DNA from: a virus
DNA length: 34,372 nt
IMG/VR virus record: IMGVR_UViG_3300032271_000989
Span: 1 to 34,372 of that record
Direction: 5' to 3' (one strand)
Shown: piece after piece, positions 16,503 to 33,969 of the stretch
How the letters are laid out: each line of letters opens with the position of its first letter
Numbering within the stretch: position 1 is the first letter of the stretch
Notes under the pieces: model-generated
What the model was told of the DNA's origin: nothing
The model's input: only the letters and a program-made list of their open reading frames with translations
The model's database searches: none
Made by a program: the position numbers and the translations under genes

Positions 16503-16608
16503 GCCGGACTAGCCCCGCTGATGCGCGGCCCTGGCAGCGATGGCCCCGATACGGCCCGCCCAAGCGAGCGATATCGCCAGAAATGGCCCCGTGGCATGCG
16601 GACTAGCC
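16503..16608 (+). ncRNA. Paired-GGACTAG leader element, copy A (upstream of capsid)
   Basis: GGACTAG occurs at 16506-16512 and 16600-16606, preceded by GCC and TGC respectively. GCCGG (16503) can pair with CTGGC (16531), with an inner CCGC/GCGG stem. GCCA-GAAA-TGGC (16576-16587) makes a GNRA-capped hairpin, and CCGT/GCGG (16589-16601) makes another. In both boxes the GG is paired and ACTAGC is left single-stranded. The element ends 38 nt before the capsid start. A related copy precedes the tailspike gene at the same distance. It could be a structured 5' leader, or, if the DNA acts, a promoter or operator. Confidence 0.6.
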
Positions 16609-16644
16609 TTTCGATCGATGCTCATCCATCTTTCGGAGGCTGCC

Positions 16645-17589
16645 GTGGTTGATCAGGTCAACACCACCGCCATTGTCACGTACCAATCCAACATGAAGCT
16701 GGCCCTTCAGCCGAAGGGTGGCGAACTTATCGGCACTTGCCTCGAGGGCGACCTCTCGGGCGAACTGGCCGAGATCGACGACTATTTCGGCGCGGCCGAC
16801 ACGCAGACGGTGCGCGAGCGCCATGTGCCGATCACGCCGAGCGATGCCCCGCAGGACCGCCTGTGGCTGGCGAAGCCCGACCCCGACTATTACGATCGCC
16901 TGGTCAACAAGCAGGACCAGCTGATGGCCGGCGTCCAGCTGCAGGGCGGTTACGTCATGCAGGGCGCGGCCGCGATCCGGCGCTACTGGAACCGCCAGTG
17001 GCTGAACGGCTTTTTCGGCACGCGCCAGACCGGCAAGAAGGGTACGATCGTGACCGCCTTCCCGAGCGGGCAGGTCGTTCCCTATACCACCGGCTTCCCG
17101 GCCGGCGGCGGCGGCAGCAACCGCATGTGCGTGGAGAAGTTCTTCGCGGCACGCGAGGTGCTCGGCCTGTCGAACGCCGACTTCACCGAGGAAGAAGCGT
17201 ACATCAACCTGACGCCCAAGCAGATCACTGACCTGCTGCGCGAGGTTCAGATCACCAGCAACGAATTCACGTCGCTGGGCGGGATGATGAGCCCCGATGG
17301 CAAGCGCCTGCTGCGCTTCCTCGGGTTCAACATCATCGAGATGAACCTGGCCGATGCCATGTACGCGACGAAGGCGCCGACCACCGAAGTGGTCAGCGGC
17401 ACCACCGTGCGCAAGAACGCGTTCTGGCTCAAGAGCGGGGTCTATACCGGCTACTGGGAACGGCTGTTCACCAACATCACGATCCGCGAAGACCTGCACT
17501 ACGAGACGCAGGTCTATGCGCGCAGCGCGATGGCGGCGACGCGCACGCAGGACGGCCTTTCGGGCTACATCCAGAACTACGAGGGCTGA
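16645..17589 (+). CDS. Major capsid protein
   Basis: This 314-aa protein probably starts at GTG 16645, with GGAGG 5 nt upstream. Earlier in-frame ATGs (16540, 16618) have no SD and lie in the leader element. The sequence has MKLALQPKGGELIGTCLEGDL, then GELAEIDDYFGAADTQTV, then PDPDYYDRLVNKQDQLMAGV and a long C-terminal beta-rich part ending TRTQDGLSGYIQNYEG. These features match the phage capsid family found in temperate T7/BPP-1-type podoviruses (HK97 fold, Phage_capsid_2 type). The C-terminal Tyr/Arg-rich region (ITIREDLHYETQVYARSAMAATR) contains residues typical of the coat fold. It should be the most abundant protein. Confidence 0.9.
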   Translation: MVDQVNTTAIVTYQSNMKLALQPKGGELIGTCLEGDLSGELAEIDDYFGAADTQTVRERHVPITPSDAPQDRLWLAKPDPDYYDRLVNKQDQLMAGVQLQGGYVMQGAAAIRRYWNRQWLNGFFGTRQTGKKGTIVTAFPSGQVVPYTTGFPAGGGGSNRMCVEKFFAAREVLGLSNADFTEEEAYINLTPKQITDLLREVQITSNEFTSLGGMMSPDGKRLLRFLGFNIIEMNLADAMYATKAPTTEVVSGTTVRKNAFWLKSGVYTGYWERLFTNITIREDLHYETQVYARSAMAATRTQDGLSGYIQNYEG

Positions 17590-17599
17590 TCGGCGCCGG

Positions 17600-17616
17600 C
17601 GCGGCCGGTGGCCGCG
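17600..17616 (+). terminator. Hairpin between capsid and decoration-like gene
   Basis: CGCGGCC-GGT-GGCCGCG is a perfect 7-bp stem with a 3-nt loop, 10 bases after the capsid stop. No T-run follows. It may attenuate transcription or stabilise the capsid message. Confidence 0.4.
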
Positions 17617-17651
17617 TCGTCCCGGTTTCCTTCCACCAGGAGTGAAACGAC

Positions 17652-18101
17652 ATGGCGAAGGGTTACTCGCTTCAGGCGCTGGGGGTGTTCGACGGCGCGG
17701 TGCCGCTGGCCATCCCGGATGGCGCAATCGTGGGCTCGCGCCTACGCCGCAATTCGATTTTCCTTACCGGCGCGTCGCTGGTCGCGCAGGGCGTGGGGGC
17801 GGTCAATGACACTATCGTGCTCTACGAATTCCCGGCGTTCTCGCTGTTCGATTCGATCACCTTCCAGACCGATACCGTCTTCACCGGCGCGACGATCCAG
17901 CTGGGCGTGGCCGGCAATGCCACGAAGTACGGATCGATCGCCGCCGCTGCGGCGAATACGCTCTACACCCTGCGCCCGGTGGCGGCCCGCATGGCCGGCC
18001 AGTTCACGGCGCCGGAACTGCTCATCGCCACGATCACGGGGGCGGCGCTCCCGGCGGCGTTCAACGCCGAAATCGCGATGACCTACCAGACCGCGAACTG
18101 A
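17652..18101 (+). CDS. Small structural protein, possible head decoration
   Basis: This 149-aa protein has an AGGAGTG SD. It is beta-rich and low in charge: LAIPDGAIVGSRLRRNSIFL, then NDTIVLYEFPAFSLFDSITF, then FTGATIQLGVAG, then NTLYTLRPVAARMAGQ, then PELLIATITGAALPAAFNAEIAMTYQ. The composition (small hydrophobic, Thr/Ala/Gly-rich, no Cys) and the place right after the capsid gene suggest a capsid-surface or head-fibre protein. I do not recognise the family by sequence. It is bracketed by hairpins, so it may be expressed differently from its neighbours. Confidence 0.75.
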   Translation: MAKGYSLQALGVFDGAVPLAIPDGAIVGSRLRRNSIFLTGASLVAQGVGAVNDTIVLYEFPAFSLFDSITFQTDTVFTGATIQLGVAGNATKYGSIAAAAANTLYTLRPVAARMAGQFTAPELLIATITGAALPAAFNAEIAMTYQTAN

Positions 18102-18111
18102 CGGTCGGCAG

Positions 18112-18144
18112 CATGCCCGGCCGCCCATGGGCGCGCCGGGCATG
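18112..18144 (+). terminator. Very strong hairpin between structural genes
   Basis: CATGCCCGGC (18112-18121) pairs with GCCGGGCATG (18135-18144). The interior CGCCCATGGGCG continues the stem, with one bulged C. No T-run follows (TCGCACTTTCC). This long perfect stem in a 72-base intergenic gap could be a transcript-processing or attenuation site. Confidence 0.5.
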
Positions 18145-18173
18145 TCGCACTTTCCAGCTGAGGAGCAAGGCCG

Positions 18174-18368
18174 ATGGCGCAGGTTAACGTGGTGATGAAG
18201 CGGGGCGACAAGCCCAAGGACTATGCGGTTTCGACCGGCACGCTGACGCTGGCGACGGACGGTATCGCGCTGAGCTACAACGCTTCGACGCTGAACCGCG
18301 GCGAGGTGTTCAAGTTCCTCGAGGAAGTGGAACAGTTCCGGTCCTCGCACGCGTTCCCGGCGGCGTAA
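18174..18368 (+). CDS. Unknown 64-aa protein in the head-tail region
   Basis: This small protein has a GAGGAG SD. The sequence runs AQVNVVMKRGDKPKDYAVSTG, then TLTLATDGIALSYNA, then RGEVFKFLEEVEQFRSSHAF, so two beta strands pair with a C-terminal helix. It is compact and soluble. It precedes tail tubular protein A by 10 bases. It may be a head-tail joining or minor capsid accessory. I do not recognise a family. Confidence 0.7.
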   Translation: MAQVNVVMKRGDKPKDYAVSTGTLTLATDGIALSYNASTLNRGEVFKFLEEVEQFRSSHAFPAA

Positions 18369-18378
18369 GGCCGCCGCG

Positions 18379-18978
18379 ATGGGGTCGAAACTGCAAGTCT
18401 TCAGCCTGGTGGCGCAGCACCTGGGGCAGGACGAGGGGCTGATCGATCCCGACCAGGACACGCGCCTGACTGTCGCGATCAACGCGGTATGGGACGTGGC
18501 GCGGAAAGCGACCCTGCGCAGCAATGCGTGGAATTTCGCCATCGAGCGCAGGGCACTGCCTTCATTGAGCGAGCCGCCGGCATTCGGGTTCGGTTATCAA
18601 TACAAGCTGCCCGAAGATTTCGTGCGCCTGGTCGACGTTGACGGGCCGGTGCCGCAGGCGCGCGACTGGAAACTGGAAGGCGGGAAGCTGCTGGGCAATT
18701 CGACCCCGCTGCAGATCCTGTATGTCCGCGACTGCATCGAGATCGATCGCTGGGACGATCTGTTCGAGCTGGCGGTGTCGTTCAAGGTTGCCGAGCTCAT
18801 CGCCGTGCAGATCACAGGCGATGCCAACGTCAAGATCGAGTGCCGCAATTCCTTCAACGATCTGTTCGGCGATGCGCAGGCGACCGACGCGCAGGAAAAC
18901 CCGCCGCAGGAATTCGACGAAGACCCATGGGTCACCGCGCGGTGGGGCTACGGACATTCCACAAGCTGGCCAGGGTAA
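18379..18978 (+). CDS. Tail tubular protein A (T7 gp11-like)
   Basis: This 199-aa protein matches the T7 gp11 adaptor in length. It starts with the helical SKLQVFSLVAQHLGQDEGLIDPDQ, and then RLTVAINAVWDVARKATLRSNAWNFAIERRAL, the 'A...W.......L....W.FA..R' pattern of the family. GYQYKLPEDFVRLVDVDG and FELAVSFKVAELIAVQIT follow. It forms the ring that joins the portal to the nozzle. It ends four bases before the tail tubular protein B gene. No clear SD is visible before ATG 18379. Confidence 0.9.
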   Translation: MGSKLQVFSLVAQHLGQDEGLIDPDQDTRLTVAINAVWDVARKATLRSNAWNFAIERRALPSLSEPPAFGFGYQYKLPEDFVRLVDVDGPVPQARDWKLEGGKLLGNSTPLQILYVRDCIEIDRWDDLFELAVSFKVAELIAVQITGDANVKIECRNSFNDLFGDAQATDAQENPPQEFDEDPWVTARWGYGHSTSWPG

Positions 18979-18981
18979 GCC

Positions 18982-21243
18982 ATGCCGACGCATTCGCTGC
19001 AGACCAGCTTCAACGCCGGTGCGCTGTCTCCCCGGCTGTTCGGCCGCACCGATGCCTCGATCTATGATGGCGGCGTTGCGGAACTGCTGAATTTCGCACC
19101 GACGGTCGAGGGGCCAGCGATCAAGCGTGGTGGCTCGATCACGGCAGGGCCAGCACAACCCAGCGCGGCGGCGATGATCCCGTTCGAGTTCAATGCGCGG
19201 CAGGCCTATACCCTGGTGTTTTCGGACGATGGCGCGGGCGCCGGCATCGTGCATTTCTTCGCAAACGGGGCGCCGCTGGTGGATGGCGGCGGCGTGCCGG
19301 TTTCGCTGGCAGTGCCCTATACCGCCGTCGATGCGCAGGCGCTGTATTGGCAGCAGTCGGCCGACGTGCTGTACCTGACGCACCCGGACTATCCCGGGCC
19401 GGCACGCATATCGCGCGTGGGGCCGGCCAGCTTCACCTATACCGTGCCGGAAATTTCGGGCGGGCCGTTTGCCGACCAGAACACGGACAAGACGGTGCTG
19501 GTGGCGGCGTCGGCCGCGACCGGCGTGGTTACGCTGACGGCGACAAGCGCCATCTTCAAGCCCGGCCATGTCGGCGGGCTGTTCCAGCTGCAGGCGATGG
19601 ATTTCGCCGGCATCAAGCTGTGGGAAGCGGCGATGGATACGGCCGCCGGCGAGATCTGGCGGTGGGACGGGAAGCTGTACCAGAACGTCGGGGGCGGAAA
19701 GACCGGCGCCACGCCGCCGACGCACAGCAGCGGCACATATTTCGACGGCACGAATTCGAGTGACCTGAACGGCAAGAACCTGGGTACGCAGTGGACCTAT
19801 TACTGCGACCAGTACGGGCAGCTGAAGATCACGGCTGTCGCGAGCGATGGTTTGTCGGCCACGGCGACGGTGCTGCGCACGATCCCGCCGGGCGCGGTGA
19901 CGGTGGCGGCCAGCGGCAGCTGGCGGTGGAACTTCGGCCGATTCAGCGAGCAGAACGGGTGGCCCAAGGCGGTGGCGATCTGGAACGATCGCCTGATGCT
20001 GTTCACGGATTTCGAGGTGATCGGGTCCGTCGTAGGCGACTACCTGAATTTCAGCGCCTTCGACGAAACCGGTCGCCTCGAGCCGGATCTGGCATTCCGG
20101 TTCCGCATCACGGGATCGAACCCGATCAACTGGGTCGCGCCCGATCTGCAGCTGCTGATTTCGACCGACAAGGCCGAGTGGACGGTGGGCCCGATCAACA
20201 GTCAGGCGGCGCCGAGCTCGACCAACCTGCAGGTGACGCGGCAGAGCCATTTCGGCAGCATGCCGGTGCGGCCGGTGCAATCGGGGCTGAAGACGCTGTT
20301 CGTGCAGCGCGGGGGCAAGAAGATCCGCGAGGCGGGCTATGACTATATCCAGAACCGCTATTCGGCCGCGAACCTGCTGATCTGGTGCCGGCACCTGGGC
20401 ATTCCCGGGATCAAGCGCCTGGGGTGGCAGCAGGAAAGCGAAGAAATCATCTGGGCCCTGCGCAACGACGGGGTGCTGTTGATGCACGCCTATGCGCCCG
20501 AGCAGCAGGTGAAAGGCTGGGGCGTGGCGCAGATCGCCGGGTTCGACGGCGCTGCAGCGCACGTGATCGATTTTTGCGTAATCCCGTCGGCCGACGGTTC
20601 TCCCGACATCGTCTGGCTGCTGGTCGACCGTGACGGCATCCGGTCGGTCGAGACGCTCGATCCCTGGTGGATCGACGGGACGCCGATGGCCGAAGCGCGA
20701 TTTCTGGACGGGGCGCTGTGGTACGACGGGGCGCCAGCTTCGCATATCGGGATCGGCGGCACAGGGTTTCCGACCAGCTGGGCAGGCAAGACCGTGCACG
20801 CGCTGGCAGACGGGCAGCATATCCCGTCGCTGACGGTGGCGAGCGACGGCAGCGTGACCTTGCCGGCACCGGCGTCGAAAGTGTGCGTAGGGCTGTTCTA
20901 CACCGCGCGGATCACCGGCCTGCCGCCCAAGCTGCCGCAGCCGCATTCGGGCGGCGCATCGGAAATGACCAAAAAGAAGGTGCTGAGCCTGCTGGTGCGC
21001 GTGGTCGAGACGGCCGGCCTGTGGGGCGGACAGGCGCTAGCCAGTCGGTTGGCCGAAATCTTCCGGCGGAATGCAACCACGGCGCTGGATACGGCGGACC
21101 CGCTGGCCAGCGGCGTGAGCGACAAGATCCCGGTGACCGGATCGACCGATCGCGAAGGCGCATGGGTGCTGGAAAGCCGCGCGCCGCTGCCGGCAATCAT
21201 CACCATGGTGAGGGGCACCTATCAGCCCGAGGACAAGGATTGA
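18982..21243 (+). CDS. Tail tubular protein B (T7 gp12-like nozzle)
   Basis: This 753-aa protein is close in size to T7 gp12 and in the expected position. Diagnostic sequence includes the N-terminal TSFNAGALSPRLFGRTD and VAELLNFAPTVEGPAIKRGG segments. Later come IWNDRLMLFTDF, the NPINWVAPDLQLLISTDKAEWTV stretch, and GLKTLFVQRGGKKIREAGYD, typical of the propeller-like central domain. It forms the tubular tail and nozzle. The stop overlaps the next start by one base (TGATG). It is one of the best-supported calls in the window. Confidence 0.92.
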   Translation: MPTHSLQTSFNAGALSPRLFGRTDASIYDGGVAELLNFAPTVEGPAIKRGGSITAGPAQPSAAAMIPFEFNARQAYTLVFSDDGAGAGIVHFFANGAPLVDGGGVPVSLAVPYTAVDAQALYWQQSADVLYLTHPDYPGPARISRVGPASFTYTVPEISGGPFADQNTDKTVLVAASAATGVVTLTATSAIFKPGHVGGLFQLQAMDFAGIKLWEAAMDTAAGEIWRWDGKLYQNVGGGKTGATPPTHSSGTYFDGTNSSDLNGKNLGTQWTYYCDQYGQLKITAVASDGLSATATVLRTIPPGAVTVAASGSWRWNFGRFSEQNGWPKAVAIWNDRLMLFTDFEVIGSVVGDYLNFSAFDETGRLEPDLAFRFRITGSNPINWVAPDLQLLISTDKAEWTVGPINSQAAPSSTNLQVTRQSHFGSMPVRPVQSGLKTLFVQRGGKKIREAGYDYIQNRYSAANLLIWCRHLGIPGIKRLGWQQESEEIIWALRNDGVLLMHAYAPEQQVKGWGVAQIAGFDGAAAHVIDFCVIPSADGSPDIVWLLVDRDGIRSVETLDPWWIDGTPMAEARFLDGALWYDGAPASHIGIGGTGFPTSWAGKTVHALADGQHIPSLTVASDGSVTLPAPASKVCVGLFYTARITGLPPKLPQPHSGGASEMTKKKVLSLLVRVVETAGLWGGQALASRLAEIFRRNATTALDTADPLASGVSDKIPVTGSTDREGAWVLESRAPLPAIITMVRGTYQPEDKD

Positions 21244-21701
21244 TGCCGGTTCTGTTCGAGCCGCTGCGGCCGCGCCATGTGCCGGCGATCAACCTGAAGG
21301 CGGAGCAGCGAGGGGCGATGGGGCTTTGGACCCCCGATCTGACCGAGGATTACGGGCGCGAGCTTGTCGCGGCCGGGCCGGCCTGGGCGGGCATCGATGC
21401 CGCGACGGGGCGCGTGATCGGGGCGGCCGGGTTCTGCATCATGTTCCCGACGCACGCCACGGCATGGGCGCTGCTGAGCGCTCATGTCGGGCGGCACGCG
21501 GTCGATATCACGCGGTTCGTGCGGCACCAGATCGCGATCGCGCCGTGGAAGCGGATCGAGGCGCTGACGCGGGTGAAATACCGCGAGCAGGGCAGGTGGG
21601 CGCACGCCTGCGGCTTTGCCCGGACGGCGACGCTGCGGTGCCACGGCCCCTTGGCCGAAACCGTGGAATTGTGGGAGGTTGTGCGCGATGCAGGCGGGTA
21701 G
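21243..21701 (+). CDS. T7 gp13-like protein with GNAT-type fold
   Basis: This 152-aa protein starts at ATG 21243 with an AAGGA-type SD. The sequence PVLFEPLRPRHVPAINLKAEQ, then AWAGIDAATGRVIGAAGFCIM, then ATAWALLSAHVGRHAVDITRFVRHQI, then RVKYREQGRWAHACGFARTATL follows the beta-alpha order of small acetyltransferases. It also matches phage T7 gp13 (Phage_T7_Gp13/GNAT-like), which is needed for virion formation. Whether it acetylates anything is unknown. It is placed exactly where gp13 is expected, between the nozzle and the internal virion proteins. Confidence 0.8.
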   Translation: MPVLFEPLRPRHVPAINLKAEQRGAMGLWTPDLTEDYGRELVAAGPAWAGIDAATGRVIGAAGFCIMFPTHATAWALLSAHVGRHAVDITRFVRHQIAIAPWKRIEALTRVKYREQGRWAHACGFARTATLRCHGPLAETVELWEVVRDAGG

Positions 21702-22233
21702 TGGTGGTGGAATGGGCGCCGGCATGGCGACGCAGGCCCTTTCCTCGTTCGCGCAGGGGTATGCCGGGTATCGCGCCGGGATGGCCAACGCGCGCATCGC
21801 GCGGGCCAACGCGCAGATGGCGACGATGGACGGGGCGACCGCCGCCACGGCCAGCGATGCGCGGTATCGTGCGGCGATCGGCGAGCAGCTGGCCGCGCAG
21901 GGGGCAAGCGGTTTCCAGATGGGGACCGGCTCTGCACTGGATGCGGTGGTGGCGAGCCGCGTCAACCAGACCTTTGCGTCAATGCAGATCGAGCGGCAGG
22001 CGGCCGCGCGCGCGGCCGGATACAACAACCAGGCGAGCATGGCGAAATTCAGCGCCACGCAAGCGCTGCTGACCAGGATCACGAACGCCGCCAGCGGCAT
22101 GATGACCAACATCCACGACTACGCCACCGCCGGCCAGCAATGGGCAAATGGCGGCGGCGGTGGCGGAAGCGGAGCCAGCGGCGCGCTGGCTCCAAGCACG
22201 TGGAATCCGGCTTACGAGGTTGGCTATGGTTGA
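21688..22233 (+). CDS. Internal virion protein B (T7 gp14-like)
   Basis: This 181-aa protein starts at ATG 21688 (GGGAGG 9 nt upstream), overlapping the previous gene by 14 bases. It has a Gly/Met-rich N-terminus (GSGGGMGAGMATQALSSFAQGYAGYRAG), then a long Ala-rich helical region (ARIARANAQMATMDG, then IGEQLAAQGASGFQMGTGSALDAVVASR). It ends in a Gly/Ser-rich tail. The pattern is the gp14-like ejection protein family, which is thought to form the outer-membrane part of the DNA ejection channel. It overlaps the next gene by 8 bases. Confidence 0.82.
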   Translation: MQAGSGGGMGAGMATQALSSFAQGYAGYRAGMANARIARANAQMATMDGATAATASDARYRAAIGEQLAAQGASGFQMGTGSALDAVVASRVNQTFASMQIERQAAARAAGYNNQASMAKFSATQALLTRITNAASGMMTNIHDYATAGQQWANGGGGGGSGASGALAPSTWNPAYEVGYG

Positions 22234-24214
22234 TCTGTCTATCGCACCCGAGAGCGCGCCGCTGGCGACCCCTGATCTGCCGATGAACGCCACGCCGGAG
22301 GCCTATGGCGCCGGACTTGCAGCCGCAGGCGCCCAAGCCGGACACCAGCTGGTGCAGATCGCGGTGCAGCGCAAGGAAATCGACGAGCGCAACCGCTATG
22401 AAGTGGACCTGACGGCGGGCCAGTTGCGCCTCGCACAGCTGCGCGAGCAGATGGCTGCGCAAGTCAACGCGCTGCAAGGCGACCACACGGTCAGTGTCGA
22501 CGACTATGCCAAGCGGGTAGGTGCCGCCTTCGACCAGCTGGCCGGCGCGGTAACCGAAGGGCAGACCAACCAGCGCATCCAGCGGCAGCTGGCGGGCCAA
22601 GTAGGGGAAATGCGCGCGCAATACGGCGAGGCTGCGCAAAACTGGCAATCGATGAAACGCGCGGTGCTGTTCGGACAGGGTGCCAACGCGCTGGGCGAAA
22701 CGATGGAAGCCCAGGCGTATCAGGCGCCGAACCCGCAGACAGTTGAAAGCCTGCAGCTGCAATGGGCCGAATATGCCCACGCGCTTAACGGCTTGCAGCC
22801 CGAACAGCGCAGCGCCCTGGTCCACGAGAAAGTTGCGAGCATGGCCTCCGCCTTCGGTCGTGGCCTAGCCAACCGCGACCCCTATCAGACGAAGGCCCTA
22901 GTGGCCGGTGGCTGGTTCGGCCAACATGGCATCAAAGGCGAGCAACTGGCGGCGATCGACCGTGCCGCAGACGTCGAAATTCGTGCCCGTGAGAACGAGG
23001 TCAAAGCGCAGCAGCAACTGCAGCGCACTGACGCGGAGCGTACCGTCGAGCAAGCGATTGGCCGCGTCCACGACGGCGCGATCCTCGACGACCACCTGCT
23101 GGCCACCTATGAGGCGCAGGCGACGGCACTGGGGCTATCGCCGGTCAAGCTGGACGAACTGAAGGATGCGCGGGCGCAAAACCGCGTGAAGAACGAGTTC
23201 CGGGCGGCCAGCCCCGAAACGATCGCGGCGGAGCTGAGCCGCCTCGACACCAAAATCGCCCAAGCCGGAACGCAAGCAGACTTTGGCATGGTCCAGCGGC
23301 GCAACCACGTTCAGGCCGTGCTTGAGCAGCGGCGGCGGGAGATCGGCGCGGATCAGGCCGGATGGGCGGCCCGAAACGGCATAGACGCACCGCAAGTGGA
23401 CTGGGACCATCCCGATGCGAACGTCATCATGCAAAGGGTCAAGGCAATCGACCTCGCCGCGCAGTCGGCCGGGATCGCGCCGGAGGCACGGCAGTACTTC
23501 TCGGCCGACGATGTGCAGCGGTTCAAGGGCGGGCTTGGCTCCAAGGATGGGTTCATGGGCGCCATCGCGGCGGCGAAGCAGTTCGGCGGCGCCCGCTCCG
23601 CCGTTGCAGCCGGGCAGCTGAAACCCGGCGACGCCAACTTCGCATACCTGACCACGCTGCCGGTTGCGACGGCGGGCGCGGTGTGGGACGGCCTTCACCA
23701 CCTCAAGCAATTTCCGGCGGCAATAACGATCCCGAAGGAAGAGGTGCGGCGAACGGAATGGCTGCACAAATTTGGCGAGCAAGACCGCTGGGCCATGGGC
23801 GCGCTGATGAAGCTGGACGCACAGCAACGCGGGGCATTCTTCGACACGGCGCGGAACCTGCTGGCGGGGTTCGTGGCGCAGGGCGAGCCGCTGACGCCGA
23901 ACCTGCGCTGGCGGGCGCTGAACCAGGCCATAGGCGCATCAGGGAAGCTGGGGCCAGACCAGCGGGGCGGCTTTGCGATGTGGGGCAGCACGGCATTCCT
24001 GCTTCCCCGAACGATGACGGATGCCCAATTCAAGAAGGCGGCCACGCAAGCGTGGGCCGCGTCGCCGCCGGTCGACGCCGGCGGAAAGGCCTATCCGATG
24101 GCGAACGCGCACCCCGTCAGGATCGGGCCGAGCAAATACCGCTTCGACACGGTGAACGGCATGCCGCTGCGCCGCCGTGACCACTCCGTGTTCACGCTGG
24201 ACATCAAACCATGA
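22226..24214 (+). CDS. Internal virion protein C (T7 gp15-like ejection protein)
   Basis: This 662-aa protein starts at ATG 22226 (GAGG 6 nt upstream). It is almost wholly helical and charged, with Gln/Ala/Glu-rich coils (QLRLAQLREQMAAQVNAL, then RAADVEIRARENEVKAQQQLQ). There is no membrane segment or enzyme motif. Length and position match the gp15-like protein of the ejectosome, which spans the periplasm. The later part (FAYLTTLPVATAGAVWDGLHHL, then RWAMGALMKLDAQQRGAFF) includes conserved-looking features of long ejection proteins. It overlaps the next gene by 4 bases (ATGA). Confidence 0.78.
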   Translation: MVDLSIAPESAPLATPDLPMNATPEAYGAGLAAAGAQAGHQLVQIAVQRKEIDERNRYEVDLTAGQLRLAQLREQMAAQVNALQGDHTVSVDDYAKRVGAAFDQLAGAVTEGQTNQRIQRQLAGQVGEMRAQYGEAAQNWQSMKRAVLFGQGANALGETMEAQAYQAPNPQTVESLQLQWAEYAHALNGLQPEQRSALVHEKVASMASAFGRGLANRDPYQTKALVAGGWFGQHGIKGEQLAAIDRAADVEIRARENEVKAQQQLQRTDAERTVEQAIGRVHDGAILDDHLLATYEAQATALGLSPVKLDELKDARAQNRVKNEFRAASPETIAAELSRLDTKIAQAGTQADFGMVQRRNHVQAVLEQRRREIGADQAGWAARNGIDAPQVDWDHPDANVIMQRVKAIDLAAQSAGIAPEARQYFSADDVQRFKGGLGSKDGFMGAIAAAKQFGGARSAVAAGQLKPGDANFAYLTTLPVATAGAVWDGLHHLKQFPAAITIPKEEVRRTEWLHKFGEQDRWAMGALMKLDAQQRGAFFDTARNLLAGFVAQGEPLTPNLRWRALNQAIGASGKLGPDQRGGFAMWGSTAFLLPRTMTDAQFKKAATQAWAASPPVDAGGKAYPMANAHPVRIGPSKYRFDTVNGMPLRRRDHSVFTLDIKP

Positions 24215-26912: not shown

Positions 26913-27205
26913 GAGGCGTGAGCCACGCGGGACTTCCGCCGCCGCCTCCAGCGACCAAAGGCGTGACCAGCCAAGTAAAACACGCCGTAAATGGCGTAGG
27001 TGAATGCGATATTCGCAGCCATCACAGCCGGGCGCCACACCCAACTGCCATCCTCACCCATGTTGGCCCACGCCTGGGCAACGGAGAGCGCCTTAACAAC
27101 ATATGCGCCCAGCGCTACGGGGAGCAGCAAGAGAAACGGGCGATAGGAAAGCCGACGAGAAGAAGCGCCGGCGATGATCAAGATTATCAAAAAAACAAGC
27201 ATCAT
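26909..27205 (-). CDS. Small membrane protein (moron-like), minus strand
   Basis: This 98-aa protein starts at ATG 27205. Hydrophobic helices lie at about residues 2-14 (MLVFLIILIIAG), 21-40 (YRPFLLLLPVALGAYVVKAL) and 60-80 (VMAANIAFTYAIYGVFYLAG). The cytoplasmic tail is strongly basic (GRWRRRRKSR). The gene is transcribed away from the antirepressor and overlaps the 93-aa gene. The first codons lie in AT-rich DNA. A membrane protein divergent from ant, between ejection-protein genes, is placed like P22 sieA; superinfection exclusion is a reasonable but unproved guess. Confidence 0.7.
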   Translation of the reverse strand: MMLVFLIILIIAGASSRRLSYRPFLLLLPVALGAYVVKALSVAQAWANMGEDGSWVWRPAVMAANIAFTYAIYGVFYLAGHAFGRWRRRRKSRVAHAS

Positions 27206-27219
27206 CGCGGCAGCCCCCT

Positions 27220-27247
27220 TGTTGCCCGAGTCGCTCTCAACTATAGC
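27220..27247 (+). promoter_or_regulatory. Candidate promoter for the antirepressor leader RNA
   Basis: TTGTTG (27220-27225), a 16-nt spacer, then TATAGC (27242-27247). The expected start is near 27254, just before the first hairpin of the leader RNA. The -10 region also reads TATAGT on the other strand, so a divergent promoter for the membrane gene could overlap. The match is moderate. Confidence 0.45.
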
Positions 27248-27253
27248 GGCGGG

Positions 27254-27340
27254 GACGCGGGGAGTCCCGCGTTAGGGATTGGAACCCCTGCATCGGTAGG
27301 CGCAGCCCGCGCCACACGCCCCGTGTGGGCGCGGTTTTTT
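27254..27340 (+). ncRNA. c4-like small RNA upstream of the antirepressor
   Basis: The RNA would begin with hairpin ACGCGGG-GAGT-CCCGCGT (27255-27272), followed by GGGATTGGAACCCC (27275-27288) and CGGTAGG (27294-27300), and end in the terminator at 27307-27340. GATTGGAAC and CGGTAGG are complementary (one G-U) and in nested order to GTTCCAATC (27393-27401) and CCTATCG (27380-27386) in the ant leader downstream. The layout of promoter, about 85-nt RNA, and ant leader with two complementary blocks is that of P1/P7 c4. Function is inferred; I did not compare it to the Rfam C4 model. Confidence 0.6.
27307..27340 (+). terminator. Intrinsic terminator in the antirepressor leader
   Basis: CCGCGCC-ACACG-CCC-CGTGT-G-GGCGCGG forms a 12-bp stem with one bulged G, followed by six T (27335-27340). 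This is the best intrinsic terminator in the window. It would release the c4-like RNA and limit readthrough into ant. Confidence 0.88.
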
Positions 27341-27499
27341 ATGGTCGGGCGTGTCGTGAGCACCCTTGGGTGCGCCGCTCCTATCGGCGGTAGTTCCAAT
27401 CATGGCGCGTCCGGCCACCAAAGGGTCCGCACAATCTGCGGACCCTTCCGGGATTGGAACCCCGGTGACCGGGCGATTTCGATAGGAAGTCGTCTATGA
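27341..27499 (+). CDS. Possible Icd/Ash-like leader ORF coupled to the antirepressor
   Basis: An in-frame ATG at 27341 directly follows the terminator T-run and opens a 52-codon frame, MVGRVVSTLGCAAPIGG...NPGDRAISIGSRL, that ends as ATGA on the ant start. In P1, ant translation is coupled to the small upstream gene icd, and c4 RNA blocks icd. The sequence has the look of the short Icd-like/Ash products seen upstream of ant genes. A second leader frame (27402-27485, 27 codons, MARPATKGS...) ends on the ant SD. Either or both could couple translation. SDs are weak, so confidence is low. Confidence 0.4.
   Translation: MVGRVVSTLGCAAPIGGSSNHGASGHQRVRTICGPFRDWNPGDRAISIGSRL
27380..27486 (+). promoter_or_regulatory. 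Antirepressor leader fold that can hide the SD
   Basis: CCTATCG (27380-27386) pairs with CGATAGG (27480-27486), which includes the first bases of the ant SD AGGAAG (27484-27489). Inside it, GTTCCAATC (27393-27401) pairs with GATTGGAAC (27452-27460). At the core an 11-bp hairpin (27421-27447) and a small CCCGG-TGA-CCGGG hairpin (27461-27473) fit without conflict. The closed form would block ant translation. The c4-like RNA carries copies of the 3' strands, so it competes for the same 5' strands. Confidence 0.65.
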
Positions 27500-28236
27500 C
27501 TAATGCCCTCCTCTCCTACCAATTTGACGACACACCCGTGCGCATCGTTATGGTCGCGGGCGATCCATGGTTCGTGGCAAACGATGTGGCCAAGGCACTG
27601 GGGTACCGTGAGGCCTACGACATGTGCCGCAACCTCGATGATGACGAGCGGGGTGCGCACAACGTGAGCACCCTTGGTGGCGACCAGTCCGTAAACATCA
27701 TCTCCGAAAGCGGCCTCTATGCCGCTGTGCTGAAATCCCGAAAAGAGGAGGCTAAGCGCTTCCGCAAGTGGGTGACTGGAGAAGTGCTGCCGAGCCTGCG
27801 CAAGACAGGCCAGTACCTGATGCACGACATCGAGCCGGCGCCGATGCAGTCGATCGACTTCGATCCGTCGCGTCTGGCGGTCGGCGTCTCCGTGATCCGC
27901 GAGGCGCGGCGCCTTTGGGGGCCGGTCGCAGCGCGCAACCTGTGGGCACAAGTGGGCCTGCCGCCCTGCGTGCTCGATAGCGAGGCCGTCTTCGACGGCG
28001 ACCCGATAGCGATGCCGCTGAAAGCCTATCTGACCGGCAAAGTCGAAACGACGATCCAGCAAGCCGCCGAGGGAATGGGGATCGACAACCTCGACATGAG
28101 CACGCGGTTCCGCATCGGAAAGCTGCTCGCCATGTGGGGCTGGGTCGCGAAAAACCGCAAGGTGTCGAAACACCGAACCGCGCGGATATTCAGCCGGCCC
28201 GCCGCGTCCGTCATCGTCGATCAGCCGGAGGCATGA
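27496..28236 (+). CDS. ant: Antirepressor with BRO-N domain
   Basis: This 246-aa protein has an N-terminal BRO-N (Bro/Ant) domain at about residues 8-105: IVMVAGDPWFVANDVAKALGY, then NVSTLGGDQSVNIISESGLYAAVLKSRKEEAKRFRKWVTGEVLPSLRKTG. The C-terminal domain (ARRLWGPVAARNLWAQVGLP, then TRFRIGKLLAMWGW) is a helical DNA/protein-binding region like those of other phage antirepressors. It would inactivate the repressor, which lacks a self-cleavage domain. AGGAAG lies 6 nt before ATG 27496 but can be hidden by the leader fold. The ant gene is unusually placed among late genes, as in P22. Confidence 0.88.
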   Translation: MTNALLSYQFDDTPVRIVMVAGDPWFVANDVAKALGYREAYDMCRNLDDDERGAHNVSTLGGDQSVNIISESGLYAAVLKSRKEEAKRFRKWVTGEVLPSLRKTGQYLMHDIEPAPMQSIDFDPSRLAVGVSVIREARRLWGPVAARNLWAQVGLPPCVLDSEAVFDGDPIAMPLKAYLTGKVETTIQQAAEGMGIDNLDMSTRFRIGKLLAMWGWVAKNRKVSKHRTARIFSRPAASVIVDQPEA

Positions 28237-28238
28237 CC

Positions 28239-28448
28239 ATGGCGCAGCTTCCGATGGATTTCGAGACGCGAGCCAACCGGTTCCTTGGGGCCATGGCCTG
28301 CGTGGAAAACATGCTGGGCAACACCGTGCCGGGTTCGGTGCTGGACCCCGAGAGCATGGCCTATCTGTTCAACCTGCTGGCCGGCGAGGCCAAGGAAGTC
28401 GTGAGGCCTTCGCGCCTGTGCGCCAACGATGATGATGACGAACCATGA
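28239..28448 (+). CDS. Unknown 69-aa protein between antirepressor and ejection protein
   Basis: The start is ATG 28239 (GGAGG 7 nt upstream); ATG 28233 would overlap the ant stop but is too close to the SD. The sequence FETRANRFLGAMACVENMLGNTVPGSVLDPESMAYLFNLLAGEAKEVVR is a compact helical domain with an acidic Asp-rich C-terminus (NDDDDEP). It overlaps the ejection protein start as ATGA. Either it belongs to the virion operon or it came with the ant insertion. Function is unknown. Confidence 0.65.
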   Translation: MAQLPMDFETRANRFLGAMACVENMLGNTVPGSVLDPESMAYLFNLLAGEAKEVVRPSRLCANDDDDEP

Positions 28449-30946
28449 GCTTTCAATCCTGCCTGGCCAAGCTGAAAAGCGAAGGCATCATCGACCGTGC
28501 GAACGCGGAACGGTTCGAGAAGCTGTTCACCGAAATGGAAGCCGGGTTCAAGCAGCGGTTCGGCGATACGGTCGGCGCGGTCATGGCAGGCGAAGAGACG
28601 CTCAAGGCGCTGGATTATGACCTGCAGTTGAGGCGCCGGCAGGCCGCGCTGCAAATCACAGCGCAGCAACGCGCCTACGCCGACATGCAGCGCTACAGGG
28701 GGCGCGGCAAAGATCGCGACATCGACGCCGTGCGCGGGATGATGGCACGCGACCTCGCCGCCCCCTACATGAGCATCGAAAGCCGCGCCGAGATGCTCGA
28801 CTTCCAAGCGCACCGGGAAATCGGCGAAGCGATCGACCATTTCAGCCGCGACCTCAAAGGCCAGATGCGGAACAAGGCAGACTTGATGGACGTGCTGCGC
28901 GCGCGTCACGGGGAGAAGGTCGACAACCCCCTCGCGCAGCGTCTGGCCGACGCGATCGGCGGCGTGTTCGAACGGCAGCGACAGCACTTCAACGCCCTGG
29001 GCGGCGACATCGGATACGATGCGAAGTACGGCCTGACGCACAAATGGGACGCAGCGCGAACGCGCAAGGTGCCCTATGAGACGTGGCGCGCGGTCGTGCT
29101 GCCAGAGCTTGACCGGGCGCGGATGATCGATGGCAAGACCAACCTGCCGTTCACCGACCAAGGGCTGGATGAAGCACTTCGGGCGGTCTATGAAACGATC
29201 CGAACCGATGGCCTAAGCGGCCTGGGCGTCGCCGAGGTGGGCGGCGCGGGCAAACTGGCGAACCGGCGCAGCGATGCGCGCTTCCTGCAATTCCGCAACG
29301 CCGATGGGTGGATGCGTGTCAACGCACAGTTCGGCGCGGCCGACCCGTGGACCGGGATCATCGACCAGATCCACGGGATGAATCGCGACATCGCCATGAT
29401 GGAGCGCTTCGGACCCGACCCGAACGCGTCGGTCAAATGGATCACGGGCCAAATGAAGCGGCGGCTGACCCAAAGCGACGACCCGAGCGCAGAACCGGTC
29501 AATCTCGCGAAATCGGGCGCGCACCGGATCGACGAATTGTGGCGCGAAGTCAGCGGGCAAGCGAGCATTCCCATGCTGGGGACAGCCGCCCAGACGAGAG
29601 CGGTGCGAATAATCCACGGCGCGCGCGATCTTACGACGGCCGCAAAACTGGGGCGGGCGACGATCTCCGCATTCTTCGGCGACATGGGGACGACCTCGGT
29701 CGCGCAGGCATTCAACGGATTGCCACAGACGGGACTGCTGCTGGGTTTCCTGCGAGAGATCAACCCGGCAAGCAAGGCCGAGCGCCAGCTTGCGACTGAT
29801 CTGGAACTGGGGATGCGCGATGCCACGCAAGGGTTGCTCGGCCTCAACCGCTACCTCGGAGACTCGCAAGGGCCGGCATGGACCAAGGTTGTGGCAGATA
29901 CGTCGCTGCGGCTGTCGGCACTCAACGCCGTCACGGAGGCCCGCCAAAGGCAGTTCGGGAAGACGTTCCTGTGGGCGCTGGCGCGGGAGCGCGAAAAGCC
30001 GCTGGGCGATGTGAGCGAAGGCCTGCGGCAAGCAATGGGCCGGTATGGCATCGGGGAAGACGACTGGAATGCCATGCGCCGGGCGGAAGTCGTCCGCTCG
30101 AGCGGGGCGTTCGACACGCGCGCATTCATGTCAGGCCCCGAGGTGCGAAAAGTGAACCCGCAGGCCGCGGACAAAATGATGGACATGATCCTGTCGGAAA
30201 CCGTCCGTGCCGTGCAGACCTCTACGGCCAAGGCCAGAGCAGCGCTGAACTTCGGCAATGCGGGCACGTTCAAGGGGGAGGCATCGCGCAGCATCCTGCA
30301 ATTCAAGACGTTTACCGCGTCGATGATGATGACGCAGGCCGAAACGATCATGGCACGCCCGGACCTCGGGCCGATGTACGGGGCCATGTACGCAGGCCGC
30401 CTGCTGGCTACGCTCACCCTGATGGGGGCGGCAATCGTACAGACCCGCCAGATCGCCAAAGGCGAAGACCTGCGACCGATGCTCGGATGGGAATTCTGGG
30501 TAGATGCCATGGTCGCGGGAAGCGGCATGGGCATCCTCGGCGATGTGATCGGGTCGTTCAAAAACCAAGACATAACAGGACTGTCCGGGATCATAAGCGG
30601 GCCGATGGTCGGAACCGCGACCGACATTGGCAATGCCACTATCAAGAACGCATTCCGCGCAGCGCGCGGAAAGGATACCCACGTTGGGCGTGATCTTGTC
30701 GATCTGGTGCGCAAGAACACGCCGGGATCATCGACCTGGTATCTCGGGCCAGCCTTCGCGCGGATGTTCACAGACCAGCTGCGCACCATCGCAGACCCTG
30801 ACTACCCAATGGCGTGGGGACGAATGCGGAAGCGTGCGGCTGACCAAGGCGCGCCGATGTGGTGGGAGCCGGGAGAGATGCTGCCCTCCCGCGCGCCGAA
30901 CCTCGGCACGGCCGTGCAAGCGCCGCCGCCCCAGCCCGCGCCTTGA
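28445..30946 (+). CDS. Large internal virion (ejection) protein
   Basis: This 833-aa protein is helical and charged, without an enzyme motif that I recognise. It starts FQSCLAKLKSEGIIDRANAERFEKLFTEMEAGFKQRFG. Later parts include FGDMGTTSVAQAF, RSILQFKTFTASMMMTQAETI and YAGRLLATLTLMGAAIVQ. This last hydrophobic stretch, with VAGSGMGILGDVIG, could insert into the inner membrane during ejection. Its size and position before the tailspike match the gp16-like ejection proteins of podoviruses, minus the transglycosylase domain, which is in the protein at 24211-26625. It ends before the second leader element. Confidence 0.75.
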   Translation: MSFQSCLAKLKSEGIIDRANAERFEKLFTEMEAGFKQRFGDTVGAVMAGEETLKALDYDLQLRRRQAALQITAQQRAYADMQRYRGRGKDRDIDAVRGMMARDLAAPYMSIESRAEMLDFQAHREIGEAIDHFSRDLKGQMRNKADLMDVLRARHGEKVDNPLAQRLADAIGGVFERQRQHFNALGGDIGYDAKYGLTHKWDAARTRKVPYETWRAVVLPELDRARMIDGKTNLPFTDQGLDEALRAVYETIRTDGLSGLGVAEVGGAGKLANRRSDARFLQFRNADGWMRVNAQFGAADPWTGIIDQIHGMNRDIAMMERFGPDPNASVKWITGQMKRRLTQSDDPSAEPVNLAKSGAHRIDELWREVSGQASIPMLGTAAQTRAVRIIHGARDLTTAAKLGRATISAFFGDMGTTSVAQAFNGLPQTGLLLGFLREINPASKAERQLATDLELGMRDATQGLLGLNRYLGDSQGPAWTKVVADTSLRLSALNAVTEARQRQFGKTFLWALAREREKPLGDVSEGLRQAMGRYGIGEDDWNAMRRAEVVRSSGAFDTRAFMSGPEVRKVNPQAADKMMDMILSETVRAVQTSTAKARAALNFGNAGTFKGEASRSILQFKTFTASMMMTQAETIMARPDLGPMYGAMYAGRLLATLTLMGAAIVQTRQIAKGEDLRPMLGWEFWVDAMVAGSGMGILGDVIGSFKNQDITGLSGIISGPMVGTATDIGNATIKNAFRAARGKDTHVGRDLVDLVRKNTPGSSTWYLGPAFARMFTDQLRTIADPDYPMAWGRMRKRAADQGAPMWWEPGEMLPSRAPNLGTAVQAPPPQPAP

Positions 30947-30974
30947 CGCGATTCGCGGCATGTGGGAAACAGAC

Positions 30975-31072
30975 GGCGCCGGACTAGCAGCCATGCCCCG
31001 GCGCCCGTGGTGCGGTTCACCCGGCGAGCGGCCGTAAAGCGCCAGAGGCGGCCCCGCGTTGCGGACTAGCCC
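30975..31072 (+). ncRNA. Paired-GGACTAG leader element, copy B (upstream of tailspike)
   Basis: GGACTAG occurs at 30981-30987 and 31063-31069. The 8-bp stem GGCGCCGG (30975-30982)/CCGGCGCC (30998-31005) displays ACTAGC in its loop. CGCC-AGA-GGCG (31040-31050) and CCGC-GTT-GCGG (31054-31064) follow, in the same order as in copy A but with different paired bases. The element ends 38 nt before the tailspike ATG. CGCCAGA, GGCCCCG and TGCGGACTAGCC are shared with copy A. The pairing differences that keep stems intact suggest an RNA-level constraint. Confidence 0.6.
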
Positions 31073-31107
31073 TTCGCCCATGACTGATCATGTGCGGGGC
31101 TTATCCT

Positions 31108-33969
31108 ATGTCCGTTGGGGTTGAAACCCTTCCTACCAACTATATCGGCGATGGCGTCACCACGCGCTTTCCGCTCGGGTTCTCGCTGACGAGCCCCGGC
31201 GATCTGCGCGTGCGTCTGAACCTTGCGGTGCAATCCGGCGGGGTGACGCCGGTCGACGGCGATGCGGTGTTCGACGTGGCGCCGGCGGTGGGCGTGAAGG
31301 TCGAGCTCGGCCGCGCGACGCCGCGCGCGCAGGACGACATATTTCCGGCCAACGGGCGGTTTCCGAGCGAGGCCTATGCCATCGCGCTGGATCGTCTGGT
31401 GCGCACCGAACAGGAGCAGGACGCGGCGCTGGCCGCTGCCATGGCGCGTTCGGTGCTGGTGCCCGATGGCGAGACGGCGGCGCCGCTGCCGGCGGCGGCC
31501 GCGCGGGCGGGGCTGTTCCTCGGCTTTGACTCGAGCGGGAACCCGGTGCCGGTGCCGGGCACGACGAATGCACCGGCCAATGGCGCGCAGATCGCATCGC
31601 CGGGTGGTGACAGCTTGGGCGATGCGGTGGAAACGCAGCGGTTCGCCACGGTGGCGGCGATGCTTGCCTCGACGATCCAGCGGCGCAGCGCGGGGCGGCC
31701 GTGGCGCGCGGCCGGTTATGCCTATGCCGAGGCGCCGGCGGGCGTGCTGGACTATCACCTGGTGACCGCCGGCGGCGTGCTGCTGTACGTGTTGCCGGTC
31801 AACGGGGCGGTGCCGGGCGAGGCGTTCGGCGCGATCGGCGACGGGGTGACGGACTGCGCGCCGGCGCTGACGCGGGCCTTTCAACTGGCCAAGCGGGTTC
31901 GGCTTGGCGTCGGCCAGTTCAACATCGGCGCATCGAGCCTGCCGTTCACGACGGATTGCGTGCTGCTGGGCGAAGGCGAGGCGACGCAGATCCTGTGGAG
32001 CGGCACCGAGGCAGTGCGTTGCCGGGCCGGGCAGGGCACGACGGGCGCGGCGATGTTCTCGACCTTCGCCTATCGTCTCGTGGTGCGCGGCATCAATTTC
32101 GTGCGCAGCGCCTTCAGCACGTCGGCCAGCGCGATCTATGTGTCGAACGTGCGTGGTGTGTGGGTTGAGGATTGCTTTTACAGCAATTCGCGCCTGCTGA
32201 TGGTCCTGCATGAGGCGGCAGACAGCGGGGTCTATGACACCAGCACCGGGTCGACGACGGTCGACCCCGCCGTTGTGGCGGGCTTTTCCAACACCGACCT
32301 GAACGATCTGAACGAGCATATCTATGTGCGCCGGAACACGAGCCGGAACACGCAATACGGTTGCCAGGGCGCGCGCATCAACTGGGCGCGCTATGGCGAA
32401 ATCTCGAGCAATCACTTCGCCTACGGCAATATCTCGTGGTGGGGCGGCGGCGCGCGGCAGGACCAAGGCGGCCAGCCCGGCATGCTGCGGCGCTTCGCGA
32501 ACTTCCGCATCTTCGGCAACTATTGTTCCTGGAACAACGGGTCGATCTACGGCAACAACGGCATCGCGGTGCTGGCCGAGGCCAACACGCTGGAATACTC
32601 GATCGACACCGCGCTCGATTTCGAGGGCTGCATCGATTGCCACGGCGTTGGCAACACGATCCGGCATTTCGGCAACTATGCCTGCTCGACCTTCTACCTC
32701 GCGCGCAATATCTCGTTCCGGGCGAACACGATCGAGTGCACCGTCGCCGGCGCGAGTGCGGCCGCGTCGATGTTTGCGACCACAAATTCGACGTCGTTCA
32801 TGCAGAGTGTGGCGACCACAGCATTTGCCGACAGCGGCGATGGCGGCACGCTGGTTACGCTGACGACGGGGCCGGATATCGTCAGCGGGCAGACGGCCCT
32901 GCTGCAGACGACGCCAGGCGGTGCACGCCAGACAGTGACCGTGACGAAGGTTTCGACCCTGGTCTATCGGGTCAACCTGCCGTTCGGCACCTTCACGCCG
33001 GGCGGGAACCTCACGTTCCAGCGCGGCCGCGTCTATTTCTGCGCGACCGCGGGCCTTGGTGTCGACACCGCCGGCACCGTGAAGGGTGAGGTCATCTTCG
33101 ATGGCAATACCGTCGGTGCCTATGACGGCATCATGGGCACGACGCAGGATACGCAGATCGAGACGGTCGAGGTCAGCAACAACAAGCTGACCAACTGCCG
33201 CATCGCCCTGACCTATGGCACCGGCGACCTGAAGATCGTCACCGACAACATCATGAAGTTCCGGCATGCGGTGGGCAGTTATGTCACCGGGTGGACCGCC
33301 GGCGTGCCGGAATTCGATCCGTCGCCACTAATCGACGTGCAGGGCTATACCAAGGTTGTCGTCAACGGGAACCTGATCAACCTGTTGAACAACGGCACCT
33401 GGGTGCCGGCCGGCACCTATGCGATGAACGTGGTCTCCGCGCGCCAGTCCAACACACAGATCATGATCGAGGTGCAGGGCAACAAGCTGACGCGCGTGCA
33501 GGCCGCGAACGTGACAGACGGCCTCAACCATAGCAGCCGCAACACGCTGATCGTCGGGGCTGCGGCGCGGATCTCGGACAATCTGCTGCCGACGATCGTC
33601 GACTCATCGCCGGCGGGCCAGTGCCGCAGCAGCTTTGCCGGCAACATGGTGTCGGCGAACGGCACCAGTGCCGACAAGCTGACGATCGCGCCGACCAATG
33701 GCGCGACGGTGCAGCTGCAGCCCAACCATCGCGCGGTGTATCTCACGCACAACGCGCCGATTGCCGCGCTGACGATCGCGCTGCCGGTGGACCCGGCCGA
33801 CGAGGCGACCTTCCGCGTCGTGAGCAAGTCGGCCGTCACCGCGCTGACGGTGACCAACGCAAGCACCGGCACGCCCTCGACGATCGGCGCGCCGCCCGCC
33901 TCGCTGGCGCCGGGCGACAGTATTTCGGTGCGCTTCTCGATCACGCTCAACGCCTGGATTTGGGGATGA
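31108..33969 (+). CDS. Tailspike / tail fibre with pectate-lyase-like beta-helix
   Basis: This 953-aa protein starts at ATG 31108, with GGGG 8 nt upstream; an earlier ATG at 31090 lacks an SD. The N-terminal 110 residues (VETLPTNYIGDGVTTRFPLGF, then SEAYAIALDRLVRTEQEQ) resemble the tail-attachment domain of podoviral fibres. An Ala/Pro-rich linker follows. At about residues 237-256, FGAIGDGVTDCAPALTRAF is the standard start of pectate-lyase-type right-handed beta-helices. The following coils repeat short Asn-rich strands (NTSRNTQYGCQGARINW, then NYCSWNNGSIYGNNGIAVL). The C-terminus is beta-rich. It should bind, and possibly degrade, surface polysaccharide. Confidence 0.9.
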   Translation: MSVGVETLPTNYIGDGVTTRFPLGFSLTSPGDLRVRLNLAVQSGGVTPVDGDAVFDVAPAVGVKVELGRATPRAQDDIFPANGRFPSEAYAIALDRLVRTEQEQDAALAAAMARSVLVPDGETAAPLPAAAARAGLFLGFDSSGNPVPVPGTTNAPANGAQIASPGGDSLGDAVETQRFATVAAMLASTIQRRSAGRPWRAAGYAYAEAPAGVLDYHLVTAGGVLLYVLPVNGAVPGEAFGAIGDGVTDCAPALTRAFQLAKRVRLGVGQFNIGASSLPFTTDCVLLGEGEATQILWSGTEAVRCRAGQGTTGAAMFSTFAYRLVVRGINFVRSAFSTSASAIYVSNVRGVWVEDCFYSNSRLLMVLHEAADSGVYDTSTGSTTVDPAVVAGFSNTDLNDLNEHIYVRRNTSRNTQYGCQGARINWARYGEISSNHFAYGNISWWGGGARQDQGGQPGMLRRFANFRIFGNYCSWNNGSIYGNNGIAVLAEANTLEYSIDTALDFEGCIDCHGVGNTIRHFGNYACSTFYLARNISFRANTIECTVAGASAAASMFATTNSTSFMQSVATTAFADSGDGGTLVTLTTGPDIVSGQTALLQTTPGGARQTVTVTKVSTLVYRVNLPFGTFTPGGNLTFQRGRVYFCATAGLGVDTAGTVKGEVIFDGNTVGAYDGIMGTTQDTQIETVEVSNNKLTNCRIALTYGTGDLKIVTDNIMKFRHAVGSYVTGWTAGVPEFDPSPLIDVQGYTKVVVNGNLINLLNNGTWVPAGTYAMNVVSARQSNTQIMIEVQGNKLTRVQAANVTDGLNHSSRNTLIVGAAARISDNLLPTIVDSSPAGQCRSSFAGNMVSANGTSADKLTIAPTNGATVQLQPNHRAVYLTHNAPIAALTIALPVDPADEATFRVVSKSAVTALTVTNASTGTPSTIGAPPASLAPGDSISVRFSITLNAWIWG

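Follow-up and report, generated by a model that had tools for sequence, protein, structure and literature searches.

Two genes of the virus record IMGVR_UViG_3300032271_000989 (all 34,372 bases of which form the window analysed here and supply its position numbers), those for the major capsid protein and for a tailspike, are each preceded by a pair of GGACTAG boxes, and these boxes are the most constant part of a structured element in the 5′ untranslated region (UTR). Comparison of leaders indicates a conserved fold of four helices (P1 to P4), and comparison together with folding shows a further hairpin (P5), holding the Shine–Dalgarno (SD) sequence, that shares a strand with P4. Each box pair would constitute one cis-acting RNA at the 5′ end of the major capsid message and, in the window clade, of the tailspike message too. 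We consider it probable (roughly 0.68) that the element is a cis-acting translational RNA switch that times or scales the synthesis of capsid and, where present before that gene, of tailspike. It looks to be a previously undescribed folded RNA that precedes the capsid gene of many tailed phages.

Fold and covariation of the leader element

Side-by-side reading of the leaders gives an element of ~100–110 nt with four helices. P1 runs in the order stem, RNAA, stem, loop, stem, C, stem; the short P2 stem is in most cases closed by (G)AAAG(A) and comes after a GAC that is often conserved; P3 is variable and the weakest helix of the family; and P4 runs in the order GAAG, GGC, C, CCG, loop, CGG, ANAA, GCC, CUUC. 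The RNAA/Y internal loop is common to P1 and P4 but oppositely oriented in the two; these are the two boxes picked out in an earlier note on this DNA, the first boxes being the second-box motif with the helix ends exchanged. The features of the two window leaders and their genes are as follows.

Capsid leader and gene
16503–16614, + strand: whole element, matched by covariance models R1 and R2
16503–16535, + strand: P1, holding the first box (16506–16512), with family covariation; 5′ side GCCGG 16503–16507, ACTA 16508–16511, GCC 16512–16514; 3′ side GGC 16527–16529, C16530, CTGGC 16531–16535
16564–16577, + strand: P3, GCGA 16564–16567 with TCGC 16574–16577 (GCGT/ACGC in the relative L008)
16580–16612, + strand: P4 (putative on-state hairpin), holding the second box (16600–16606); base GAAA/TTTC (16580–16583 with 16609–16612) and GGC/GCC (16585–16587 with 16606–16608); internal loop with C16588 opposite A16602, ACTA 16602–16605 (CTA bulge); upper stem CCGT/GCGG (16589–16592 with 16598–16601)
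16604–16642, + strand: P5 (putative off-state hairpin), enclosing the SD GGAGG 16635–16639 and sharing 16604–16612 with P4; fold −15.6 kcal/mol, z −3.5
16645–17589, + strand: gene for the major capsid protein (314 aa, starting with GTG), assigned to PHROG 3437 major head protein at E 7.8e-30

Tailspike leader and gene
30978–31077, + strand: whole element, matched by R1 and R2
30978–31002, + strand: P1, holding the first box (30981–30987); 5′ side GCCGG 30978–30982, ACTA 30983–30986, GCA 30987–30989; 3′ side TGC 30994–30996, C30997, CCGGC 30998–31002
31009–31021, + strand: P2 equivalent, GGTG 31009–31012 with CACC 31018–31021
31023–31043, + strand: P3, GGCG 31023–31026 with CGCC 31040–31043, read directly
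31045–31075, + strand: P4, holding the second box (31063–31069); base GAGG/CTTC (31045–31048 with 31072–31075) and GGC/GCC (31050–31052 with 31069–31071); upper part with C31053 opposite A31065 and CCGC/GCGG (31054–31057 with 31061–31064)
31068–31101, + strand: P5, enclosing the SD-like GGGG 31096–31099; −16.7 kcal/mol, z −3.7
31108–33969, + strand: gene for the tailspike/tail protein (953 aa, starting with ATG), assigned to PHROG 1640 tail protein at E 6.5e-8

There are exactly four copies of GGACTAG in the window, all on the + strand (16506, 16600, 30981, and 31063), as the earlier note had counted; at least four copies were reached in 2 of 100 dinucleotide shuffles of the window. CGCCAGA, GGCCCCG and TGCGGACTAGCC are indeed common to both window leaders, and the 9-mer GGACTAGCC has one copy in a 4.8 Mb Novosphingobium genome, vs. 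392 for the reversed control. The distance of 38 nt from second box to start codon holds for both window leaders (16606 to the GTG at 16645; 31069 to the ATG at 31108), but it is not a constant, as the element of relatives ends ~30–47 nt before the start, rarely more.

The proposal that the GG of the boxes is base-paired is borne out by L008, a contig with 61% capsid identity to the window: its second box changes from GCGGACTAGCC to GCCCACAAGCC and the partner strand to GGGC, giving a compensatory GGGC/GCCC in P4 with CC in place of GG. The GG is thus kept for pairing and not for sequence. The suggested hairpin GCCA-GAAA-TGGC is not a conserved pairing; its GAAA pairs with the UUUC 3′ of the second box, and in P4 the partner of GGC is the GCC of CTAGCC. 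CTAG itself is not constant, the box reading ACAA, ATAA, GCAA, etc. in relatives, and the palindrome required for CUAG kissing between boxes is lost in nearly all of them.

Across the family, the first residue of RNAA and the base opposite are A–C in 78 leaders, G–C in six, and G–U in four for P4, and A–C in 50, G–C in 34, and G–U in two for P1, with A–U never seen at this position. U is found opposite G only, as expected for a wobble-type pair, and the NAA that comes after forms a bulge of 3 nt. GNRA tetraloops (GCAA, GUAA, GCGA, and GAAA) cap many of the P1 and P4 hairpins, family-wide, and might dock into the RNAA/Y loop of the other hairpin.

Covariation was assessed on two alignments. In an unfitted MAFFT alignment, 78.3% of cells are paired (vs. 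64.5% when shuffled and 27–49% in slid controls) and double-change cells number 110, vs. 46 in shuffles. In the model-fitted alignment of 90 distinct leaders, which leans to its own structure and comprises related sequences (a bias partly answered by the unfitted alignment and the slid controls), 87.8% of cells are paired vs. 66.0% when shuffled, and there are 437 double-change cells vs. 144, a value reached by 0 of 500 shuffles. When every pair of columns was ranked by mutual information (63 leaders with <85% identity), the top eleven were model pairs, and the next two indicated a GAAG/CUUC base of P4 that the model had lacked. Variants of this base are GAAG/CUUC, GGAU/AUCC, GAAA/UUUC, and GAAU/AUUC, and it reaches at least 4 bp in 68 of 86 leaders, vs. 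44 with permuted partners. The first raw alignment yielded almost no structure in RNAalifold, its variable loops being poorly aligned.

Shine–Dalgarno hairpin and the proposed switch

The stretch from the P4 3′ strand to the start codon, folded against mononucleotide shuffles and with no alignment, in nearly all leaders forms a hairpin (P5) whose stem contains the SD (mean z −3.43; z < −1.5 in 57 of 59 dissimilar leaders). The 5′ strand of P5, GCC-YUUC, is the 3′ strand of P4, and thus the two hairpins are mutually exclusive. The SD side mostly follows P4: leaders with GAC/GUC in P4 mostly have A at the middle position, and with the P4 variants GGG/CCC, AGG/CCU, and CGU/ACG the SD side mostly changes along. 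The matched duplex energy is −10.3, vs. −9.4 with permuted partners (sd 0.23; 0/200). When whole leaders are folded, pairing of the SD dominates (median 0.82), and SD exposure is 0.16, vs. 0.32 with shuffled leaders (p 5e-10). The suggestion in the earlier note of a structured 5′ UTR acting on translation is thereby strongly upheld by the conserved fold, its covariation, and the SD-sequestering hairpin, but the "boosting" of translation that it envisaged is too narrow, as the computed ground state hides the SD.

In the proposed mechanism, P5 would be the default off state, blocking ribosome binding, and formation of P1–P4 would open P5 and allow the gene to be translated, P4 representing the on state. 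P1–P4 might be reached by co-transcriptional folding, in which case young messages would be on and old messages off, or by the binding of a small molecule or of a protein, for instance one of phage or host origin able to recognise the paired RNAA/Y loops. Without the downstream part of the leader, P4 has a probability of 0.3–0.4, and can therefore form before the SD is made.

Several points weigh against such a switch. The P4 state lies 5–9 kcal/mol above the ground state in the nearest-neighbour model, which handles non-canonical loops poorly, so P4 would need help. In a few leaders, all of one clade, GGACUU is retained at the SD with GCC in P4, and the correspondence between P4 and P5 is thus imperfect. 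Relatedness among the leaders inflates the permutation tests, and part of the complementarity to the SD could be that of an ordinary pyrimidine-rich anti-SD.

More tentatively, the element may represent a new RNA-switch class of a large podovirus group, diverged in HTVC010P-type pelagiphages, which would sense a signal of the infection stage and time translation of the coat protein, with a tailspike copy in one clade; candidates for that signal, sensed through the paired RNAA/Y loops, are a phage protein, a host protein, or a metabolite. With this element, an RNA that is structured, widely conserved, and so far unrecorded would join the means by which phages control their most abundant protein. 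The phages concerned include HTVC010P relatives, and a search for a phage-encoded RNA polymerase showed none, although its controls were also empty. The timing of capsid synthesis in these phages becomes directly testable, and the element offers a marker by which this capsid group can be annotated in metagenomic data.

Distribution and transcript start

Two covariance models, R1 (36 capsid leaders) and R2 (91 leaders), both built with the window clade excluded and with E-values that are rough owing to short calibration, recover both window leaders. R1 matches 30978–31077 (35.4 bits, E 8.9e-5) and 16503–16614 (28.1 bits, E 0.0027), with the next match at 14.3 bits; R2 matches the tailspike leader (38.8 bits, E 2.8e-7) and the capsid leader (29.5 bits, E 4.6e-5), with the next at 13.2 bits. 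R1 also finds the corresponding places in relatives. The context-free pattern GGCCCCG N4-9 GGAYWAGCCYTTCG, scanned over 2.9 million viral contigs, marks 26 stretches, each a few dozen bases 5′ of a gene for this capsid type or for the window-clade tailspike. Profile scans with capsid alignments added ~145 loci, and a recognisable box is found in 79 of 116 distinct upstream regions under a loose criterion (up to three mismatches) that includes some chance placements. A covariance-model search and a covariation check, of the kind that the earlier note had advised, yield further copies with compensatory pairing, and the same element stands before the capsid genes of relatives in ~90 divergent capsid leaders.

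Among the pelagiphages, capsid leaders match R2 at the corresponding place in Lederberg (25.4 bits) and HTVC035P (22.7 bits); those of Greip and Skadi-4 are weak R1 matches, the latter looking like a diverged copy; and in HTVC010P and HTVC203P a P1 of the right form is readable, though the models do not reach them. A published account of Skadi-1, of which Skadi-4 is a sister isolate, sought "ribonucleotide switches" and reported none (PMC10504331). The coding sequence annotated as Lederberg_17 (924–1016 of record L054) overlaps with the P4/SD part of the capsid leader and is unlikely to be a true gene.

R1 matches three genomes in bacterial genome samples (299, 385, and 398 genomes; overlapping), in every case at this prophage capsid leader or a Novosphingobium tailspike leader. 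A match (E up to 1) is present in 35 of 51 whole records searched. Those with good scores number one per genome, with two in the window clade only, and the tailspike copy is therefore a clade-specific duplication; neither the 51 records nor the genome samples gave any other gene context at good score. The element tracks one capsid family (PHROG 3437-type) across deep divergence. Rfam 15 gave no match at the element, either at the gathering threshold (window and 11 other phage contigs) or at a relaxed E-value (14 loci), in agreement with the statement in the earlier note that no described family has this layout. A published description of a phage capsid leader RNA was likewise not found in the open literature, which is not proof of absence.

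The window encodes terminase, portal, scaffold, tail, and lysogeny genes. The relatives of its capsid protein among named phages are mostly HTVC010P-type Pelagibacter phages, and its capsid leader DNA shows no detected similarity to named phages. Four viral contigs with 90–92% capsid identity and L008 are its relatives, together with a prophage of Novosphingobium sp. FSW06-99, and both leaders are found in all relatives whose record covers both genes. The window also carries a C4 antisense RNA (Rfam RF01695, 59.5 bits; 27337–27422, + strand), the known P1/P7-type immunity RNA, immediately 5′ of an antirepressor-like gene (27496–28236), and a lysogeny control region (4353–5012) in which an XRE-type repressor gene (4353–4739, − strand) is divergent from a Cro-like gene (4803–5012, + strand); the virus is a temperate podovirus.

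Upstream of the two window leaders the following are present.

16463–16492, + strand: promoter-like pair of the capsid leader, TTGACG 16463–16468, 18 nt, GATAAG 16487–16492
16468–16498, + strand: inverted repeat GCCCGCCTT/AAGGCGGGC, which overlaps with the capsid leader's promoter-like region
30943–30971, + strand: promoter-like pair of the tailspike leader, TTGACG 30943–30948, 17 nt, GAAACA 30966–30971

Both window copies thus have TTGACG followed, after 17 or 18 nt, by a poor −10. TTGACG and GGATAAGG are invariant in all aligned relatives of the capsid leader, and the TTGACG of the tailspike leader is retained in three relatives (L016, L017, and L018). Family-wide, TTGACA lies within 110 nt 5′ of P1 in 17 of 86 distinct leaders, vs. 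1.85 when shuffled and one on the other strand; in ten of the 17 it ends 31–40 nt before P1, which would put P1 close to +1. A clear promoter directly upstream is seen in a subset of leaders only, and many show none. In two alphaproteobacterial genomes the leader and the capsid gene come first next to a host-type gene that points the other way, so the leader must there be read from its own promoter. That divergent gene encodes a methyltransferase (L215, 4300–15785; L216, 3771–6600); one locus includes tail genes and the other just one further gene, no terminase or portal gene was recognised by eye near either, and these are decayed or possibly domesticated prophage parts. The single-subunit RNA polymerase domain PF00940 was not found in 17 records including the window, although the control genomes were empty too; for Skadi-1, an RNA polymerase of the T7 type is stated to be absent (PMC10504331).

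The arms of the inverted repeat change together in L008 (2750–2850) to GGGCGCCC/GGGCGCCC, and the repeat may be a terminator of the upstream transcript or a processing site. In the L102–L143 clade (e.g., L118 and L129), a strong terminator-like stem and T run lie ~10 nt 5′ of P1, leaving little room for a promoter in between.

Alternative explanations and known systems

That the boxes are promoter or operator DNA for a phage-specific factor, or kiss through CUAG, as the earlier note considered, is very improbable. The pairing of boxes at a fixed distance and the near-palindromic core in the window would suit it, but the boxes show base-pair covariation of the RNA type, drift while pairing is kept, and have ACAA or ATAA as the core in relatives. 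In addition, sigma-70-like promoters upstream of the element place the start near P1 in many leaders, so that the boxes are transcribed leader and not promoter DNA. The same position of P1 near the inferred start favours a 5′-terminal stabiliser or processing element, by which the fold would raise the amount of the capsid and tailspike messages by protecting them from 5′-dependent decay, or would mark a cleavage site. This would accord with the strong hairpin or terminator-like stem directly 5′ of the window capsid copy and of the L102–L143 leaders, and with carriage of the element by the two most demanded structural products, but leaves the complementarity of the P4 3′ strand to the SD, and the two specific RNAA/Y loops, unexplained; we regard it as unlikely, at about one chance in six.

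A put-like antiterminator, the nascent RNA of which would bind host RNA polymerase to carry it past late-operon terminators, could be placed just 3′ of a promoter, as in many leaders (clearly in a subset only), and could serve phages in which a T7-type RNA polymerase was not found (controls also empty) or, for Skadi-1, is stated to be lacking (PMC10504331). We judge it improbable, since the element abuts the start codon and shares bases with the SD hairpin, is preceded in one clade by a terminator-like stem, and is present as a single copy per genome in most phages. Autogenous control, in which the capsid protein (or scaffold) would bind the leader and balance its own synthesis, is rather doubtful, though less so: the element stays with a single capsid family over deep divergence, but its folded state exposes the SD, so that a repressor must stabilise P5, which has no conserved sequence except the shared strand and the SD, and the tailspike copy is not simply explained. 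A translational switch between P4 and P5 remains our preferred reading.

Among known systems, promoter or operator boxes in DNA keep their sequence irrespective of RNA pairing, which the element does not. The C4 antisense RNA (RF01695) is also a phage regulatory RNA of the window, but is unrelated in sequence, place, and target. The coat operator of MS2, to which coat protein binds, is a single hairpin with an ANYA loop. The element resembles such operators of RNA phages in that RNA controls a phage gene at the ribosome-binding site; in place of a single hairpin with a bulged A and an ANYA loop, however, it has several helices, a shared-strand switch, and RNAA in internal loops. The leader of T7 gene 10 is likewise a structured leader before a podovirus major capsid gene, but lies behind a promoter used by the RNA polymerase that T7 itself encodes, whereas no such polymerase was found here (controls empty) and the promoter-like signals are sigma-70-like. 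The put RNA of phage HK022 comprises two hairpins in early transcripts that act on RNA polymerase; like the element, it is structured and stands first in a phage transcript made by host RNA polymerase, but the element abuts a start codon and has bases in common with an SD hairpin. Unlike translational riboswitches, the element has no known ligand, and so is not filed as one; it has been found before phage structural genes only, has no Rfam match, and contains one internal loop twice, oppositely oriented. Like them, it has a conserved structured domain upstream of a gene and, as computed, mutually exclusive helices that share a strand, with the SD held in the putative off-state hairpin.

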